A stretch of DNA of 64,000 nucleotides from a virus. The DNA is taken from positions 50,256 to 114,255 of IMG/VR virus record IMGVR_UViG_3300021178_000001. One strand, given 5' to 3'. Shown in pieces: positions 5,484-55,354 of the stretch. Position numbers and translations under genes: made by a program. The first letter of the stretch is position 1. Every line of letters starts with the position of its first letter. The notes under the pieces were generated by a model, which was not told the origin of the DNA, searched no databases, and saw nothing but the letters and a program-made list of their open reading frames with translations.

Positions 5484-5996
5484 CTAGTGCTCAATGTCAC
5501 TCTTTTGTTTGACCAACTTCTTAAAGTGATCTAAAGCCACTCTGTAATCCAAGTAAGTTTTTAGAGGACTCGGTTTGGGTTCTGAAACTTTCTGATTTAT
5601 GATCTCCTCGGGATCTTTGTTGCCTTGAATGAACATCGACATCAGGTCTTGTTCGACCATGTATAGTCTGAGTACATGAGCGTCGTCGCCCACGTAAGAC
5701 GTCCCGTTCGAGTCCCTCAAGTAACACGCCGTGACCCGCAAGTTGGGGTCCAAAGTGCGGATCCTAGAGAACCACTGAATGGCGACTGCTGCTTCCACTT
5801 CGATGTGGAAGGAGACCATGACGAATCCGGGTCCCTCGTCGTTCGGAGCCACGAGGATCAGCTTGAACATCGGAAGCAGTCCCTCGAAGAACTCGTGGAT
5901 GAACTCGTGTTCCGACTCCGACGCGAGGCCGTACAAGTTCTTGACCTGTTTTACTACTTCCGAATAAATCACAGTTTGTAACTCACTTTGGTCCAT
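5484..5996 (-). CDS. Hypothetical protein, 170 residues
   Basis: ATG 5996 (MDQSELQTV) is the likely start, overlapping the end of thyX by 14 bases; the longer frame to 6179 only shadows thyX. The protein is acidic, alpha/beta, without a recognised motif. Translational coupling to thyX suggests joint expression. Confidence 0.65.
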   Translation of the reverse strand: MDQSELQTVIYSEVVKQVKNLYGLASESEHEFIHEFFEGLLPMFKLILVAPNDEGPGFVMVSFHIEVEAAVAIQWFSRIRTLDPNLRVTACYLRDSNGTSYVGDDAHVLRLYMVEQDLMSMFIQGNKDPEEIINQKVSEPKPSPLKTYLDYRVALDHFKKLVKQKSDIEH

Positions 5997-6870
5997 CGAA
6001 CATTCCGGGAGTGAACTTGGTGATGTTCTCGTCCTGCAACATTTTACGATACTGAGCCCAACTCTTAAAGTTGCTGGTGTAGTAGGACGCGGCGGTCGAC
6101 TGCGCTTGGTGTTCGGCGGGAGAAGAATGTTTCGGAATACCTCCCAAAAGACGGTCGTAGAGTTTGAGGTCGTCATCAATAGAAGTTTTAATGCCGTCGT
6201 GGTTTAAGTACGAGACTCTCGCACATCTAGCCACCGAACATTTGATGGCGATCGTGATGGCCTCTGCTTCTTCTTGAAGACATGTGATGTCAAAAAGATC
6301 TGTAATTTCTTGTCGAGCGCTCTCGTCTATGAACGGGAGGTGCCATCGACCATACTTTAAAAGTTGGGGTTTACTAGCTTCTCGAACGGCATACATCTCG
6401 TCCGCCAGAGCGTGAATTTCGGGTTGAGCCATTGGATGACACCTGAGAGCAAAGAAGTTGTCCCAGTCCGTCGCAGTAGCCACAACGGTGATGTGGGAGA
6501 ATGGCTCGAGGAGACGATTCGCATACTGCTTATGCACTTCGAGGTTCACGAGAACTTGCGCTTGCATCACTGCCGCGTCTCTGGCGTCAATCCAGGCGTT
6601 GTAAGCTTGCTCTAGTGCTAGACCGTCTAAAGCTTCGCCGCCTTGCATCCCCTTTTGATTCTTGGTGAATGCCAGTGGAATGACTGGGTCATCCAGAACC
6701 ATTTGAATCTGCTTCTTTACTGGAATAGCTCTGGAAGACGAAGCGTTGCGGGAGATCATTCGATGTGTTAAAAATTCGCTGTGAATCAACCGTGGGTAAG
6801 TCAAGACGAACGTAGTGATGCGAACGCCGTCTGGATTAATAGAGTCGGCGATAATTTTTGCTGAGATCAT
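5983..6870 (-). CDS. thyX: FAD-dependent thymidylate synthase ThyX
   Basis: 295 residues. The ThyX signature appears as THRMISRNASSSRA at residues 35-48 (family RHRxxSxNxxSxRY, with Ala in place of the last Tyr). The segment RCHPMAQPEIHALADEM near residue 140 is the second conserved region. ThyX makes dTMP from dUMP with methylenetetrahydrofolate and reduced flavin. It sits with an HD-type nucleotidase and, elsewhere in the window, class II RNR, dCMP deaminase and dNMP kinase, making a complete dTTP supply route. It overlaps both neighbours by short stretches. Confidence 0.85.
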   Translation of the reverse strand: MISAKIIADSINPDGVRITTFVLTYPRLIHSEFLTHRMISRNASSSRAIPVKKQIQMVLDDPVIPLAFTKNQKGMQGGEALDGLALEQAYNAWIDARDAAVMQAQVLVNLEVHKQYANRLLEPFSHITVVATATDWDNFFALRCHPMAQPEIHALADEMYAVREASKPQLLKYGRWHLPFIDESARQEITDLFDITCLQEEAEAITIAIKCSVARCARVSYLNHDGIKTSIDDDLKLYDRLLGGIPKHSSPAEHQAQSTAASYYTSNFKSWAQYRKMLQDENITKFTPGMFDGPK

Positions 6871-10000: not shown

Positions 10001-11623
10001 ATGCAAAAACAGATCATAAACGCCAAAGACTTCCTTCAGTCCAAGATGGACGGCATGGCTGAACTAGCCGACATCGTGAAGAAGACCTTGGGTCCCGGAG
10101 GTCTTCCCATAATTTTAGAACGAGTCGGGCAAGCGCTCGACGGTTCACCCTTGGGTCCAAAGATCACCAAGGACGGCGTCTCGGTAGCCGAGGAGTGCGC
10201 TTCTGAAGACAAGGCCAAAGACGTCGTGATTCAAGCCGTAAAGGCTATTTGCAGAAAAACTAACTCCGACGCCGGAGACGGCACGACTACGGCCATAGTT
10301 TTGGGCCAAGCCATTCTTCAAGAAACTCAAAAGATCTTGCAAGACGATCCTTCACTCAACCCACAACTAGTCAAGGAAGACATAGAACTGGTGGCTGCGA
10401 GAGTCATAGAGAAACTAAAGAGTTTAGCCGTTAAAGTGTCCGACATGAAGGCCATCGAGGAAGTTGCGACTATCTCAGCCAACGGCGACCGATCGATAGG
10501 TCAAGTCATTCGCATGGCCTTCGAGCACGTCGGAGCCGAGGGTGTCGTCACCGTGGACGAGGGTTCTGGATCAGAAGTTACTCTAGACGTAGTCGAGGGA
10601 TACCGCTTCAACCGTGGAGCTCAGTCTAGATCCGACTTCTTCAACAACAAGGACCGAACTCACTTCGAAGCTGAGAAAGCCGCGATCGTCTTTTTTGACG
10701 GCAAACTACTCAACTTCACCGACATTATCCCGACCATTCAGTTGTTGGCCGGAGTCGACAAGGAAACTGGACAAGCTTCCAAGAAGTTGCCGCCAGTCAT
10801 ATTTGTGGCCAACGAGTTCAGTCGCGACGTGATTCAGTTCATGCTGATCCAGAAGATGGAGCGCGGAATGCAGCTGTGCGCCATCGAGGGTCCTCACATG
10901 AGTCACGTGAGAACTGGATACTACGACGACATGGCGGCTTACACCGGTGGAAGTCGGTTGGGTAACGGAGCTAGGTCACTCTCGGCCATCATAGAAGAGG
11001 ACATCGGGTACATAGACAAGATCGTTTCGGACCAGTACAAAACGACTATGTACGAGGGCAACGGTTCGGAAGAGTCAGTCTTAGAGCGAGTAGATCAGTT
11101 GAAAGCTTTGAAGGCGAAAGCCGAGAGTCCGTACGACGCTCAAGTCGTGAACGACCGCATCGCCGCGCTCACTAACGGAATCGCGAAGATCGGCGTAGGC
11201 GGAGCCACAGAACTAGAGATCAAAGAGAAGTACGACCGCATCGAGGATGCTCTCAACGCCTCGCGAGCCGCGATTCAAGAAGGAGTGGTAGTCGGAGGCG
11301 GAGTAACCCTCCTAAGAATAGCCGTCGAGATGTCTCCCGATTCCGTCGGAGCTAAGATCATGCAAAAAGCTCTGCAGTCGCCGTTTCGTCAGATCTTGGA
11401 CAACATCGGTCTCAAAGAAGATGCAGTCAACGACATCGCGCTGTTAGTTTTAGAAGAAGAAGGAACCATCTACGACGCGCGGGATAAAAGAATTAAGAAC
11501 GCCTCGGAAGCTGGTATCATAGACCCAGTTAAGGTTACTCGAACGGCGTTGGAGAATGCTGTCAGTATCGCAGGTTTGCTGAGCACCGCGGGTGGTGCGA
11601 TTGTCTACAAAAAAGATAAGTAA
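10001..11623 (+). CDS. groEL: Chaperonin GroEL (Hsp60), phage-encoded
   Basis: 540 residues, close to the usual length. The ATP-site motifs are all present: KTLGPGG near residue 28, KDGVSVAEE near 50, AGDGTTTA near 91-98, and the late VGGATELE and VVGGGVTLL segments near 395-432. The Asp of DGTTT needed for hydrolysis is kept. The C-terminus ends YKKDK and lacks the GGM repeat. The apical region is diverged from bacterial GroEL. It folds proteins in a double-ring cage, with a GroES cap apparently supplied by the phage gene at 40654. A strong terminator follows, so it is a separate transcription unit. Confidence 0.95.
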   Translation: MQKQIINAKDFLQSKMDGMAELADIVKKTLGPGGLPIILERVGQALDGSPLGPKITKDGVSVAEECASEDKAKDVVIQAVKAICRKTNSDAGDGTTTAIVLGQAILQETQKILQDDPSLNPQLVKEDIELVAARVIEKLKSLAVKVSDMKAIEEVATISANGDRSIGQVIRMAFEHVGAEGVVTVDEGSGSEVTLDVVEGYRFNRGAQSRSDFFNNKDRTHFEAEKAAIVFFDGKLLNFTDIIPTIQLLAGVDKETGQASKKLPPVIFVANEFSRDVIQFMLIQKMERGMQLCAIEGPHMSHVRTGYYDDMAAYTGGSRLGNGARSLSAIIEEDIGYIDKIVSDQYKTTMYEGNGSEESVLERVDQLKALKAKAESPYDAQVVNDRIAALTNGIAKIGVGGATELEIKEKYDRIEDALNASRAAIQEGVVVGGGVTLLRIAVEMSPDSVGAKIMQKALQSPFRQILDNIGLKEDAVNDIALLVLEEEGTIYDARDKRIKNASEAGIIDPVKVTRTALENAVSIAGLLSTAGGAIVYKKDK

Positions 11624-40937: not shown

Positions 40938-41549
40938 ATGTCGAGAAAACAAGTGAGAGACGATCTTGAACGTTTTCATGACTATAGCATTTACTTGCCC
41001 TCTAGAACTATTTACATGGGATCGGAAGAGCATCACATAGAGCACGGTGACAGCGGTACGGACGGAGCCATGGCAGAGCGCACCGCTAAAAACCTACATA
41101 TACTAGACTCTATTTCCGCTGAACCGATCAACGTGGTGATGAACAACATCGGCGGAGACGAGTACGAGTGCTTTGCCATAATCGACGCGATCCGTCAGTG
41201 CCGTTCTAAAGTGATCATCACTGTAATGGGGCATGCAATGTCTGCGGGATCTCTGATACTTCAAGCGGCGGATGAGCGAGTAATGGCACCTTTGGCTGTA
41301 CAAATGATGCACTATGGAACTTGGGGTTGCATAGACCACTCCAAGACTTTTCAAAAGTGGGCCCGCGAGGGTAAGCGGATAGACGAGTGGATGGAGCAGT
41401 TTTATCTCGATAGAATTCACCTGAAGCACCCAGCATTCACTCTCAAGAAGTTGAAGAGCATGCTCGACCACGACACTTTCTTGACGGCCGAAGAGAGTGT
41501 AGCCTTGGGTCTATGCGACAGAGTTCTAGAATCAAGAGTCAAAGAGTGA
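40938..41549 (+). CDS. clpP: ClpP-like serine protease (S14)
   Basis: 203 residues, close to bacterial ClpP. The triad is Ser102 in GHAMSAGS, His125 in VQMMHYGTWG, and Asp in LDHDTFLTAEESVALGLCD; NNIGGDE (69-75) replaces the usual NSPGG oxyanion motif. It could form a barrel that works with host ClpX or ClpA, or serve in head maturation. A separate HK97-type prohead protease is encoded at 44537, so the second role is less likely. GGAGGG precedes the ATG. It follows GroES-like and trigger-factor-like genes. Confidence 0.85.
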   Translation: MSRKQVRDDLERFHDYSIYLPSRTIYMGSEEHHIEHGDSGTDGAMAERTAKNLHILDSISAEPINVVMNNIGGDEYECFAIIDAIRQCRSKVIITVMGHAMSAGSLILQAADERVMAPLAVQMMHYGTWGCIDHSKTFQKWAREGKRIDEWMEQFYLDRIHLKHPAFTLKKLKSMLDHDTFLTAEESVALGLCDRVLESRVKE

Positions 41550-42316
41550 GCAACAAGAATCTAAAACAAATCTACGACCGCTCGTGTGAGCGTTCGATTC
41601 CAGAAAACAAGAGTAACTCTGGGCCAAGTATAAAACCGTCGATTTTAGGATCTCCGTGCTTGCGCAAAGTGTACTACTCGTACAACAAGGCGCCCGAAGA
41701 CATTCCGTTCCCACTGACTAGCTCAAGAATAACTAGTTTGGGAAATGCCATCGGCAAGATGTTGTTCGACGCCTTCGACAAGCAAGGCGTTGTCGTTAGA
41801 TTCAGAAAACCCGACGGCACTTATCATGTGGACCAGCACACTGGTGAAGTAGACTTCGAGTTTAGACTAACTTCACCTGAACTAGGAATTCGCCTTGGTA
41901 AGATTGACGCGGTTTTGATCTTAGACGACGGTTTGTGGTTGGGCGAGTTTAAGTCCATCAACGACCGCGGGTTCAAAGAACTCAAGGCTCCAAAAGGTGA
42001 CCACACTATACAAGGTGTACTGTACTTGTACTTGTTCAACAAAGCTCTCAAAGAAGGTGAGTTCAAGCACATTCCCGAATTAGCCAAGTTTGACAAGGCC
42101 AACGGCATCCGATTCCTTTATTACTACAAAGATAAGTCTGAACTTAAGGAATTTTTCATAACTACTGCGGACGAGTTGTTCAGACAAATTGTTCTGAAAA
42201 TTGAACAAGTTAAGTGGTTCTCGGAGAACAATCAGGTACCTCCTCCCACCGAAGACTACTGCAGGACTTGCGCCTATCAATTCAGGTGTCAAAAGAATAA
42301 AAAAGCAAACGACTAA
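41546..42316 (+). CDS. Cas4/RecB-like PD-(D/E)XK nuclease with Fe-S cluster cysteines
   Basis: 256 residues. GTG 41546 gives a four-base GTGA overlap with clpP; the longer frame from 41513 is less likely. The nuclease core has LGKIDAVLIL (Asp) and WLGEFKSI (Glu-x-Lys). One Cys in SPCLRKVYY and three in DYCRTCAYQFRC form the four-Cys layout of Cas4/AddB iron-sulphur nucleases. It probably processes DNA ends in recombination or host DNA degradation. No CRISPR array or Cas1 is seen nearby. Confidence 0.75.
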   Translation: MSNKNLKQIYDRSCERSIPENKSNSGPSIKPSILGSPCLRKVYYSYNKAPEDIPFPLTSSRITSLGNAIGKMLFDAFDKQGVVVRFRKPDGTYHVDQHTGEVDFEFRLTSPELGIRLGKIDAVLILDDGLWLGEFKSINDRGFKELKAPKGDHTIQGVLYLYLFNKALKEGEFKHIPELAKFDKANGIRFLYYYKDKSELKEFFITTADELFRQIVLKIEQVKWFSENNQVPPPTEDYCRTCAYQFRCQKNKKAND

Positions 42317-42557: not shown

Positions 42558-43508
42558 ATGAAGAAACTACTCATATTGTCAGCAATTATGCTCGGATTAA
42601 TGGTGGCGCCGATCGCAGTAATGAAGGCTGGTAAGCTAGCAGCTCACGCTACGTCGACTGAAGCAGTCAACGAGAACTATCAAAAACAAGCGCTTCCTTC
42701 ACAAAATACGGCGCTGTCCGTAGACGAACCAAAAATTTTCGACGTACAAAAGACTATCAATCTAGAAGACGACGATACCGTAGTCCTCAAGGGTCCGGTG
42801 ACAGACGACTCTGTCTCGGCCGTTGAAAAGAGACTTCAAGAGATCAGTCTTAAGCTCAGCAAAAACGCCCACATACGATTGGTGCTCGACACACCCGGAG
42901 GCGACATCACGGCTGGATCCGACTTGATCGACTTTGCAAAAGCCTTGCCTCAAAAAGTAGACACCATTTCTTTGTTCGCGGCGTCCATGGGCTTCCAAAT
43001 CGCGGAAAATCTAAATACCAGGTACATCACTCGTACCGGAGTCTTGATGAGTCACCGAGCACGTCTCGGAGGCCTCGAAGGACAAATCAACGGCGAGTTC
43101 GAGAGTCGCTACAAGATGATTCGTCGTCAAGTAGACTTCATGGAACTCATCGCTTCTAAGAGGATGGGCATCGACCTAGAGACGTACCGCAAAAAGATCG
43201 TGAATGAACTCTGGGTGTACGGCTTCGACGCTCTAGAAGAGAGAGTAGCAGACGAGACGGTTGCCGTGACTTGCGGCAAGTCGATGACTGGCTCATACTC
43301 TCAAGTGTTCAATACGATGATGGGTCCAGTTAAAGTCACTTTTAACAAGTGCCCACTCATCAAAGCTCCCGAATCGGTAGAACTTAGTCAGATCGTGATC
43401 GGAGAACAAGACAAGGTTGAAGCAGCCGTTCGCATGGCGTTCAACAACCAAAAGAAATTCGTGGACGAGTACATCACCACTAATCGTTTCTTCACCATTT
43501 TCAAGTAA
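42558..43508 (+). CDS. Exported ClpP/SDH-like protease
   Basis: 316 residues. Residues 1-22 are a signal or anchor (KKLLILSAIMLGLMVAPIAV). The core at 75-240 is ClpP-like: LDTPGGDITAGS (oxyanion motif), Ser143 in FAASMGFQIA and His166 in LMSHRARLGG. The third residue is doubtful: the segment that should hold Asp reads VNELWVYGFDALEERVADE, so Asn may stand there. A C-terminal extension of 70 residues has two Cys. It would act in the periplasm or at the membrane, unlike the cytosolic ClpP encoded 1 kb upstream. AAGAGG precedes the ATG. Confidence 0.75.
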   Translation: MKKLLILSAIMLGLMVAPIAVMKAGKLAAHATSTEAVNENYQKQALPSQNTALSVDEPKIFDVQKTINLEDDDTVVLKGPVTDDSVSAVEKRLQEISLKLSKNAHIRLVLDTPGGDITAGSDLIDFAKALPQKVDTISLFAASMGFQIAENLNTRYITRTGVLMSHRARLGGLEGQINGEFESRYKMIRRQVDFMELIASKRMGIDLETYRKKIVNELWVYGFDALEERVADETVAVTCGKSMTGSYSQVFNTMMGPVKVTFNKCPLIKAPESVELSQIVIGEQDKVEAAVRMAFNNQKKFVDEYITTNRFFTIFK

Positions 43509-44040: not shown

Positions 44041-44580
44041 ATGCAAATTAGTAAGTCATTATCTAGACATAGAGCTAGAAGAGCATGGGAAAGTTATTAT
44101 AAAGCATCAATCTTGCCAGGAATGCATCTCCATCACAGAGACAGTAATTCTAGAAATAATAGCATTGAAAATTTAGTAGTTTGTACTCCAGAAGAACACG
44201 TAGAGTTTCATAGACAATTAGGTCATAAAATTCAACAAAATTATATATTTAAAGCAAACTTTTTTGCCGACATGACGGTAGAAGAGCAAGAAGCATTCAG
44301 ACGGAAAGCAAGTGAATATTCTAAACGTAGGATAAATTTAAGTAGATCAGATCAAACTAGACTATTGTGTAAACTCAATAGTGCTCTTCAAGCTAACTCA
44401 CTTGAAATGATAGACGTTGAAACTGGTAAAATTGTAAGTGAGTTCTTTAGCATTAAAGAAGCAGCTGAAAAACTTGACATTCAACGTGCTCATATACGGC
44501 GAGTCATAACCGGCGAGCGCAAAGGTTGGAGAGGCTATGTCTTTAGATACAAAGAGTTCAGAAATGCAGGACACCTTTAA
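44041..44580 (+). CDS. HNH homing endonuclease with NUMOD-type C-terminus
   Basis: 179 residues from ATG 44041. HNH core: GMHLHHRDSNSRNNSIENLV then CTPEEHVEFH. The C-terminal part (VSEFFSIKEAAEKLDIQRAH, then VITGERKGWRGYVFRY) is a NUMOD1-like DNA-binding helix-turn-helix. It overlaps the prohead protease start by 44 bases and is strongly AT-rich, as are the first 500 bases of the protease gene. Confidence 0.8.
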   Translation: MQISKSLSRHRARRAWESYYKASILPGMHLHHRDSNSRNNSIENLVVCTPEEHVEFHRQLGHKIQQNYIFKANFFADMTVEEQEAFRRKASEYSKRRINLSRSDQTRLLCKLNSALQANSLEMIDVETGKIVSEFFSIKEAAEKLDIQRAHIRRVITGERKGWRGYVFRYKEFRNAGHL

Positions 44581-45625
44581 GTTTGTAATTCCCGCAGACC
44601 TTGAAAAAGGCAAAGACGGCGAATGGAAGATTAGTGGTCTAGCTTCAACTCAGAAGGTAGACCTGCAAGGTGAAACCATAATTCAAAAAGGTATCGACTT
44701 AACTCCAATTGATAAGAAAAAAGGAGTGATTAATTTCGATCATCAACGCGGACCTGAAAACACTATAGGTCTTTTAGACGGGTACACTCGCACCGAAAAA
44801 GGACTTTTCATCGAAGGCCGTCTCTTTAAGAATCATACTAAGGCCAAAGCAGTGTATGAGATTATGTCTTCTTTGGGTGAGAACGATCGCGGTCGTGTAG
44901 GTCTTAGTGTAGAAGGTAAAATATTAAAACGCAGTTTGACTAATCCAGCAATAATTGAGAGATGCCAGATAAATGCAGTTGCTGTTACTCTTTCACCTGT
45001 AAATTCAGAGACTTTTGCAGATTTAGTTAAGTCTATGAACTCGGCCGATTCTGTGGAGTTCAACGCCGAAGAGCAAATCTCTGAGACTAATCCCAACGAA
45101 GCCACCTTTACTGCTGACCAAGTCATGGCTATCGTTCAAAAAGCTCTAGCCGTCGGTGGCCCCGCAGCGGTTGGTCCTCCGAACGCTAAGACAGGCGGTA
45201 ACGCTCTTCAGCCCTCCGACATGTCGGCTGAGCCAAAGAAGAAGAAAAAGCTCAAGAAGATGGTCTCCGGCATGTACAAGTCGAGTCTAGTCAGTATCCT
45301 CGACAAACTGCAGGTTTTATATCCCCAGTGCTCTCGCTCAGAGATCTGGGAAGCTGTAAAAGACCGGCTAGACACTAAGTTTGAGATGGAAAAAGGCTTG
45401 CGCATCAAGAATACTTCGGGCAAAGAGCGCGAGCACAAGTTGTACGAAGACGCCCGCCAGCGCGGCGACTACGAGACCAATAAAGATAAGTCGAGAGCTG
45501 AACTTAACCAACTGGCCGAGCAGTCGGGCGCCGGCAAGCACGACAAGCAAAAGATTAGGGCTCAACGCGACGCCGCAATTCAAGTCGGTGAGCGAGACCA
45601 CGTCAGACCCAACGTAAAAGGTTAA
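44537..45625 (+). CDS. HK97-type prohead protease
   Basis: 362 residues; ATG 44564 is an alternative start. The herpesvirus-like (U35/S78) pattern is present: GLASTQKVDLQGE, VINFDHQRGP with the catalytic His, GLFIEGRLF, then VGLSVEGKI with the catalytic Ser and INAVAVTLSPVN. It matures the capsid by cutting scaffold and shell. The C-terminal 150 residues are Lys/Glu-rich and may be a delta-domain or scaffold-like part. The first 500 bases are AT-rich and the rest has normal composition. Confidence 0.85.
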   Translation: MSLDTKSSEMQDTFKFVIPADLEKGKDGEWKISGLASTQKVDLQGETIIQKGIDLTPIDKKKGVINFDHQRGPENTIGLLDGYTRTEKGLFIEGRLFKNHTKAKAVYEIMSSLGENDRGRVGLSVEGKILKRSLTNPAIIERCQINAVAVTLSPVNSETFADLVKSMNSADSVEFNAEEQISETNPNEATFTADQVMAIVQKALAVGGPAAVGPPNAKTGGNALQPSDMSAEPKKKKKLKKMVSGMYKSSLVSILDKLQVLYPQCSRSEIWEAVKDRLDTKFEMEKGLRIKNTSGKEREHKLYEDARQRGDYETNKDKSRAELNQLAEQSGAGKHDKQKIRAQRDAAIQVGERDHVRPNVKG

Positions 45626-53902: not shown

Positions 53903-54211
53903 ATGAACGAGCTAGACCAAGAACTAGAAATGACCAAACTAGAGCGTTACCTCAAGCGCGAGGGAAGGCAAGACTTCGTGGACGAGATGCACCGCGCGAG
54001 TCCGGTTCAACTCGATTCTAGGATGCTGGGACTCACCAAACATCGCGAGGAGATCGACACTACTCGCAACAACGACGAGGACCTTAAGAAAGCCAAGAAC
54101 GAAGCCAAAGCCCTCGGAGCAACTTATCGTGAACAAACCAAGATGAACAAGAAACTCACTAGATTGGTGGCTTTGCTGATGGCGGAAAAAGGTGTGCCGC
54201 TGAGCAAGTGA
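53903..54211 (+). CDS. Hypothetical coiled-coil protein, 102 residues
   Basis: Highly charged and helical (NDEDLKKAKNEAKALGATYR). It overlaps the UDG-like gene by four bases. No family recognised. Confidence 0.6.
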   Translation: MNELDQELEMTKLERYLKREGRQDFVDEMHRASPVQLDSRMLGLTKHREEIDTTRNNDEDLKKAKNEAKALGATYREQTKMNKKLTRLVALLMAEKGVPLSK

Positions 54212-54582
54212 GGATAGCGATAGTAGCCAGCAACCCGTCGCACTTGGGACCGAACTCGCCGGCTAAAAAAGTGTTCCAACGATGGATGTTCACGATGGGA
54301 GTAGACGTTCCTTACGTCTTTCTCAACGTGTCCAACTCTGTCACTCCGAACAACAGGCCGCTCAAGAAGTCTGAGTACGAACTAGTTAGACTCAAGAACG
54401 ATCTAAGGTTCTGCAGCAAGTTCTTGGCTCTCGGAAACACGGCTTCGGACGCTCTCACGAGACTCCACGTTTCGCACTTCAAGCTGCCGCACCCGAGTCC
54501 GAAGAACCGCAAGTTGAACGACCATAGTCAGGTCGTCAAACTGTTGGCGGAATGCAAGGTATACTTAGACTACCGCTTCTGA
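54208..54582 (+). CDS. Uracil-DNA-glycosylase-superfamily-like protein
   Basis: 124 residues, GTG start overlapping the previous stop. MRIAIVASNPSHLGPNSPAK near the start and FLALGNTASDALTRL, then FKLPHPSPKNRKLND near 92-106, match the GNxA and HPSPxNR pattern of the UDG superfamily and related small phage proteins. The N-terminal catalytic motif is degenerate (NPSHLGPNS), so activity on uracil is uncertain. It ends 12 bases before the tmRNA. Confidence 0.55.
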   Translation: MRIAIVASNPSHLGPNSPAKKVFQRWMFTMGVDVPYVFLNVSNSVTPNNRPLKKSEYELVRLKNDLRFCSKFLALGNTASDALTRLHVSHFKLPHPSPKNRKLNDHSQVVKLLAECKVYLDYRF

Positions 54583-54594: not shown

Positions 54595-55003
54595 GGGTCC
54601 GACAGGTTTCGACTGGGAGCCATGTTCTTTGAAATGCGAGTCTCGGATGGTAGAAGGCCGAGTCATCAAACTACCAATCAATAACTGCCAACGACAACGT
54701 TGTTAGTTTGAATGCTTTCCGCGCTCGCAAGAACGTAGTTAGCCTTCAACACGCCGCCTAATAAGCTGCGCGGAGCCGTCTGAGCTCTGTTAAATAAGAA
54801 AGACAAAACCGAATGCCTCTGAATCGGTAGCTGTAATCAGAAATGTTCTACCAGTAACACAAAGACTGGTTGGTGGAGGTGGCGCAGAGCGAAAGCCGAG
54901 TGTTACCCTAAGTCTTGTCAACTGACTCAAATCGTTGAACACACTCGTAGACTTTCAAGAAGATGCTTTCAGGACCCGGGTTCAAGTCCCGGCGGGTCCA
55001 CCA
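54595..55003 (+). ncRNA. ssrA: Transfer-messenger RNA (tmRNA), one-piece, phage-encoded
   Basis: About 409 bases. The 5' GGGTCCG pairs with 3' CGGGTCC to form a seven-pair acceptor stem with G-U pairs at positions 3 and 4; G3-U70 is the alanine identity element. A-CCA is encoded. The T arm is CCGGG-TTCAAGT-CCCGG, and the conserved GGTTTCGAC follows the 5' strand. Helix P2 pairs about 54625-54641 with 54943-54962. An H-type pseudoknot (CTCGG/CCGAG and GGTAG/CTACC, 54642-54675) lies 11 bases before a GCC resume codon at 54687. The tag frame of 24 codons ends with TAA TAA (54759-54764). It would rescue stalled ribosomes with SmpB and alanyl-tRNA synthetase from the host; no smpB gene is in this window. 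Confidence 0.95.
54687..54764 (+). other. tmRNA tag-peptide reading frame, 24 residues
   Basis: The frame starts GCC AAC GAC and encodes a tag beginning ANDNVVSLNA and ending NVVSLQHAA, followed by two TAA codons. It starts like bacterial tags (AND) and ends in Ala-Ala as expected for protease recognition, but is about twice as long as the common 10-residue type. It contains the five-residue motif NVVSL twice. Confidence 0.85.
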
Positions 55004-55021: not shown

Positions 55022-55354
55022 ATGTTCAGTAAAAGATGCGCGTGCGGGATAGCCACCAAGAACTTTCACCGAGACATCGGCGACTTTTACGTGGACGAGT
55101 GCTGTCTCGCAGCCGGCTACGACGAGCTTGGCAAACTCAAGAACCCGACGCCAGAAGTCAAGTCTTCAGTGACCGACAAAGTTTTGAATTTAGTAGGCTT
55201 GGGTCAAACTAATCCAGTAGTACTCAAGCGTCCGGGTCGAGGCAAACTGCGCGACCTCAGAGTCGAAGAGCTGAAGAACTTGGCCAAGACTCAAGGAATC
55301 GTCGGAAACGAAACGATGACCAAAAATCAGCTCATCGAAGCGCTCTTGAAGTGA
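55022..55354 (+). CDS. Hypothetical protein with SAP/Rho-N-like C-terminus
   Basis: 110 residues. The N-terminal half has a Cys pair (RCACG) and ECC. The C-terminal 40 residues (GKLRDLRVEELKNLAKTQGI, ending LIEALLK) resemble a SAP or Rho N-terminal nucleic-acid-binding helix pair. GAGGAG precedes the ATG, 19 bases after the tmRNA end, and it may be co-transcribed with it. A link to tmRNA function is possible but speculative. Confidence 0.55.
   Translation: MFSKRCACGIATKNFHRDIGDFYVDECCLAAGYDELGKLKNPTPEVKSSVTDKVLNLVGLGQTNPVVLKRPGRGKLRDLRVEELKNLAKTQGIVGNETMTKNQLIEALLK

Follow-up and report, generated by a model that had tools for sequence, protein, structure and literature searches.

A complete one-piece tmRNA gene (ssrA) with an encoded CCA end occupies positions 54595-55003, on the plus strand, of the 64,000-nucleotide stretch of DNA analyzed here (the window, bases 50256-114255 of a 114,255-base virus record), and we consider it likely that this is a working, phage-carried tmRNA, acquired by the lineage in an operon position that serves as a cargo slot. 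An earlier note, made from the letters of the sequence, had proposed a complete one-piece tmRNA in a phage, and both ARAGORN and the Rfam model RF00023 returned this gene with boundaries that concur base for base. The Rfam match spans model positions 1-374 of 374, is not truncated, and scores 103.3 bits (E 2.8e-39) against a gathering score (cut-off) of 47 bits. In addition, a pattern that combines the GGTTTCGAC motif with the T arm, spaced as in a tmRNA, was found once in the window and in none of 100 shuffles. The nested fold energy of the tmRNA is ordinary (z -0.88) and thus uninformative, so the claim rests on the covariance-model match and on the anatomy of the molecule.

All of the parts listed in the earlier note, i.e. 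the acceptor stem with G3-U70, CCA, T arm, P2, a first pseudoknot (PK1) before a GCC codon and tandem TAA stops, could be traced in the sequence. The 5' strand of the acceptor stem, GGGUCCG (54595-54601), forms 7 of 7 pairs with 54993-54999, including G3-U70 and U4-G69, and is followed by the GGTTTCGAC motif of the tRNA-like domain at 54605-54613. The long P2 helix has its 5' strand at 54613-54641 and its 3' strand at 54943-54972, as placed by the Rfam match and by pairing of 54613-54620 with 54965-54972, 54625-54634 with 54953-54961, and 54636-54641 with 54943-54948. PK1 (54642-54676), the sole pseudoknot found by enumeration in that stretch, pairs CTCGG with CCGAG (54642-54646/54658-54662) and TGGTAG with CTACCA (54648-54653/54671-54676), and ends 10 or 11 bases, depending on how its last T-A pair is counted, before the GCC resume codon at 54687. 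The tag reading frame given by ARAGORN and by the sequence (54687-54764) continues from GCC with 24 in-frame codons, encoding ANDNVVSLNAFRARKNVVSLQHAA, and closes with TAA TAA at 54759-54764. Three further pseudoknots are probable: PK2 (54772-54804; GGAGC/GCUCU and GUCU/AGAC), a weak one of 5 and 4 pairs placed by visual reading, and PK3 (54808-54841; ACCGA/UCGGU and UCUGA/UCAGA) and PK4 (54854-54916; GUAACAC/GUGUUAC and AAGACU/AGUCUU, the top score), both candidates from an enumeration without a shuffle control. The T arm, the 3' strand of the acceptor stem, the discriminator A (A73) and CCA complete the molecule at 54976-55003, as seen in the Rfam match and the sequence. The gene therefore has in common with bacterial one-piece tmRNAs (RF00023) both domains, G3-U70, CCA, P2, PK1, the GCC resume codon, tandem stops and, as candidates, further pseudoknots. 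Unlike them, it sits in an operon with neighbors 12 and 18 bases away and with no adjacent promoter match, and its tag is 24 residues long with a doubled NVVSL and a QHAA end. The full-length model match and the intact determinants support a working tmRNA, as does the two-alanine ending (HAA) expected of a degradation signal, whereas the QHAA end in place of the usual LAA counts against it.

The genes on either side lie on the same strand as the tmRNA. The first gene of the presumed operon (53903-54211, 102 aa) has tblastn matches in five related phage records (L127, L130, L131, L149 and L150). It is followed by a gene for a 124-aa protein resembling the UDG superfamily (54208-54582; Pfam UDG E 0.0011, under the curated cut-off), with homologues in L130 and L131, which ends 12 bases before the tmRNA. 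Downstream, after an 18-base gap that contains an AGAGGAG ribosome-binding site, a gene conserved in relatives (55022-55354) encodes a 110-aa protein with a Cys-rich N-terminus and a Rho_N/SAP-like C-terminus (Pfam Rho_N E 3.1e-5, slightly under the cut-off). No sigma-70-type promoter match was found on the plus strand between 53544 and 55600, a stretch in which the phage may use other promoters, and no integrase was seen beside the tmRNA. This spacing, together with the missing promoter match, suggests that the tmRNA is transcribed as part of the operon, and it is likely to be processed from the operon transcript.

The remainder of the record has the character of a large tailed phage, with annotations for terminase, portal, major head protein, DNA polymerase and primase/helicase, as well as for ribonucleotide reductase, an SbcC-like protein, an ATP-dependent ligase, GroEL and a sigma-70-type factor. 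It also encodes a member of the PHROG "DNA transfer protein" family, which we take to be of the T5 A1 type. Among isolates, the best matches of its major head protein are approximately 30% identical and mostly belong to SPO1-type Bacillus phages. A search of bacterial genomes with the capsid gene, aimed at the host, returned none. The chaperonin is a full-length GroEL type (window 10001-11623; phrog_5725, E 1e-108), sharing approximately 38% identity with bacterial GroEL proteins from plasmid records, and its similarities name no host. Other observations include, outside the window, a 463-aa protein with sigma-70 regions 2, 3 and 4 (L002 10400-11791, minus strand) and a 967-aa protein fusing a VTC domain to NUDIX domains (L002 1117-4020). 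Thymidylate synthase families of both the ThyX (Thy1) and ThyA types are matched in one record (window 5983-6870, minus strand, and L002 13385-14170); the ThyA-type one could instead be a different pyrimidine-modifying homologue. No tRNA genes were detected inside the window or elsewhere in the 114-kb record, which leaves the tmRNA as its only tRNA-like gene seen. SmpB is absent from the record at E values up to 1 and would have to come from the host.

Most likely, the tmRNA would act with host SmpB, AlaRS, EF-Tu and proteases to add rescue capacity during infection. Its RNA would be transcribed within the unit running from 53903 through 54208 and the tmRNA to 55022, its 5' end would be cut by host RNase P, and its 3' end would be trimmed by host nucleases to the encoded CCA. 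Host AlaRS would then charge it with alanine via G3-U70, and host SmpB and EF-Tu would bind, as the determinants that are present predict. The charged molecule would enter ribosomes that had stalled on cut mRNA or on mRNA without a stop codon, where translation would resume at GCC and add (A)ANDNVVSLNAFRARKNVVSLQHAA, thereby releasing the ribosome for phage translation. The tagged product would probably be degraded by host ClpXP-type proteases via its C-terminal Ala-Ala. A decoy role and a private fate for the tag are both possible, and less supported than added rescue capacity. As a decoy, the phage RNA would mainly compete with the host tmRNA for SmpB and AlaRS, and so dampen or redirect host rescue. 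The tmRNA of mycobacteriophage DS6A, which consists of little beyond the tRNA-like domain, offers a precedent, since a molecule similar to it acts as a tmRNA inhibitor, possibly through titration of SmpB (PMC4131195), and the missing phage SmpB is compatible with such a role. However, the intact mRNA-like domain, PK1, resume codon and stops, along with the candidate further pseudoknots, are not needed by a decoy, nor would a decoy need a tag repeat that differs by silent changes only, and we therefore regard this role as unlikely.

That repeat is a conspicuous property of the tag, which also has a basic middle and lacks the usual Leu before its terminal AA. NVVSL is encoded at 54696-54710 (AAC GTT GTT AGT TTG) and again, 36 bases further on, at 54732-54746 (AAC GTA GTT AGC CTT), both on the plus strand. 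Of the 15 bases, 4 differ between the copies and every change is silent, which suggests selection on the tag peptide. When the tag was shuffled 20,000 times, 6 of the shuffles contained a repeated 5-mer; this test was picked after the repeat had been noticed. Removal of the 12-residue unit leaves ANDNVVSLQHAA, which resembles common tags of 10-12 residues, and an origin of the tag by duplication or insertion of this unit is thus plausible. Among 78 non-permuted tmRNAs of viral contigs, tag lengths range from 8 to 31, with 65 tags ending in AA and 35 in LAA. The earlier note had suggested that the phage might use a tag of its own, which the unusual sequence bears out in part: a strict pattern for its start had no match in bacterial and archaeal species genomes or in other viral contigs, and neither an identical tag peptide nor an identical acceptor 19-mer was present in other viral contigs. 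A relaxed pattern fetched four tmRNAs, among them one (L160, IMGVR_UViG_3300045970_000924) whose tag, ANDNVVSLKSYRSTRMVKPSGVVRSNAFQLAAA, starts ANDNVVSLK and shares the ANDNVVSL start and a basic middle with the present tag; the pattern itself already required most of ANDNVV, which limits the extra agreement to SL and the basic stretch. L160 is a high-GC phage and, unlike this phage, has no match to the capsid profile. Viral tmRNA tags are otherwise very diverse; several of approximately 30 residues share a form such as AESNFDFAPSVAEADAFLKASGFVDAELLAA (L011, L030, L039, L051 and L074), and those of L023 and L041 form a pair with GKxKNVVNAIFGRGSRNESFVGGELALAA. These long viral tag families merit separate study.

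The unusual tag could also redirect stalled products to a fate chosen by the phage, e.g. a phage ClpP-like or a non-ClpXP host protease, or could protect them. Such a role would fit the 24-residue length, basic middle, QHAA end and doubled NVVSL of the tag, and the phage does encode two ClpP-family proteins (window 40938-41549 and 42558-43508). However, both genes lie inside the head-gene block and have head maturation proteases as their best PHROGs matches, ClpP-family genes occur in 15 of the 16 records searched, relatives without tmRNA included, and the Clp ATPase C-terminal domain (PF10431) has no match in the record. We rejected a link between these genes and the tmRNA because they occur in relatives without tmRNA; this and their resemblance to head maturation proteases leave them as no support for a private degradation route, and redirection by the tag appears improbable. 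A more specific form of the idea, in which a dedicated adaptor or protease reads the doubled NVVSL and basic middle as a phage-specific signal and sorts stalled products unlike the host tmRNA, is very doubtful. A third protein resembling head maturation proteases is encoded at window 44537-45625 (phrog_1028), and a Cas4-like exonuclease (window 41513-42316) sits between the two ClpP-like genes. The ClpP-like gene pair recurs in most relatives searched, and its second member appears, in one pairwise alignment, to be without the aligned catalytic Asp.

A search of IMG/VR with the major head protein returned 27 loci at 62-87% identity, and no tmRNA was found in the 27 whole records, three of which are 119, 121 and 101 kb in length, while many are short fragments, so that absence there says little. 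Relatives that cover the region keep the gene order 53903, UDG-like where present, 55022, 55440; homologues of 53903, 54208, 55022 and 55440 lie in matching order in L130, and subsets of them in L127, L131, L149 and L150. The slot itself is variable between relatives: before the 55022 homologue it is empty in L127, is occupied in L130 by a 194-aa gene that has a nucleotide-binding loop motif, and contains several genes in L131 and L149 and two small ORFs in L150. No tmRNA remnant was found in the slot of these relatives, where ARAGORN at a lowered threshold made only weak, scattered calls. The conserved order of the flanks and the 27 capsid-related records without tmRNA point to a lineage-specific gain, which, on the records available, appears confined to this one. 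Since both flanks are phage genes syntenic in related phages, the tmRNA is phage-borne rather than a host ssrA at a prophage border, and its embedding between them argues against host DNA at the end of a contig. Phages and plasmids searched with the tmRNA gave no extended match, only the T-arm/acceptor end, and no close relative of it was found; global identities to other viral tmRNAs (64-70%) were too low and too alike to reveal a source, and searches with the flanking genes added no records to those already found. A host ssrA recently captured and kept without function, or a chimeric assembly, is very unlikely: the absence of tmRNA from all 27 capsid relatives does make the gain recent or lineage-restricted, but the tmRNA is intact throughout, is separated by 12 and 18 bases from two phage genes with homologues bordering the corresponding slot in relatives, adjoins no integrase that we could see, and has a tag start whose pattern fits no species genome searched.

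Phage tmRNAs are already known. The earlier note had called them rare in phages, which is too strong: tmRNA was reported in 402 of 18,146 phage genomes, about 2% (PMC9004378), and one exact tmRNA pattern retrieved at least 119 stretches from IMG/VR, some of which could be host ssrA adjoining prophages. Those of mycobacteriophages (Bxz1, Cali, Catera, Wildcat) and of Bacillus phage G (PMC4131195) are likewise phage-borne and presumably use host SmpB, while huge phages carry tmRNA and also encode SmpB (PMC7162821). In C1 mycobacteriophages the tmRNA stands beside 31-34 tRNA genes (PMC4472892, PMC9583779), whereas no tRNA gene was found in this record. Bradyrhizobium elkanii phages likewise have tmRNA without tRNA genes (PMC12656738), although they belong to another phage group and host. 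The tmRNA of the marine methylophage Melnitz (PMC9004378) is also phage-borne and patchy in its viral group, but is two-piece, is associated with a glutamine riboswitch and has been traced to Alphaproteobacteria, whereas the present one is one-piece. Distinctive here are the lineage-private gain, the unusual 24-residue tag and the lack of any tRNA gene found alongside. These results bear on the unsettled reason why lytic-type phages carry tmRNA. With an intact tmRNA, no tRNA genes, and a slot that is empty or otherwise filled in relatives, a comparison with and without the gene becomes possible inside one phage group, and the silent-only divergence of the doubled motif hints that phage tags may be under selection as peptides instead of being mere passengers.
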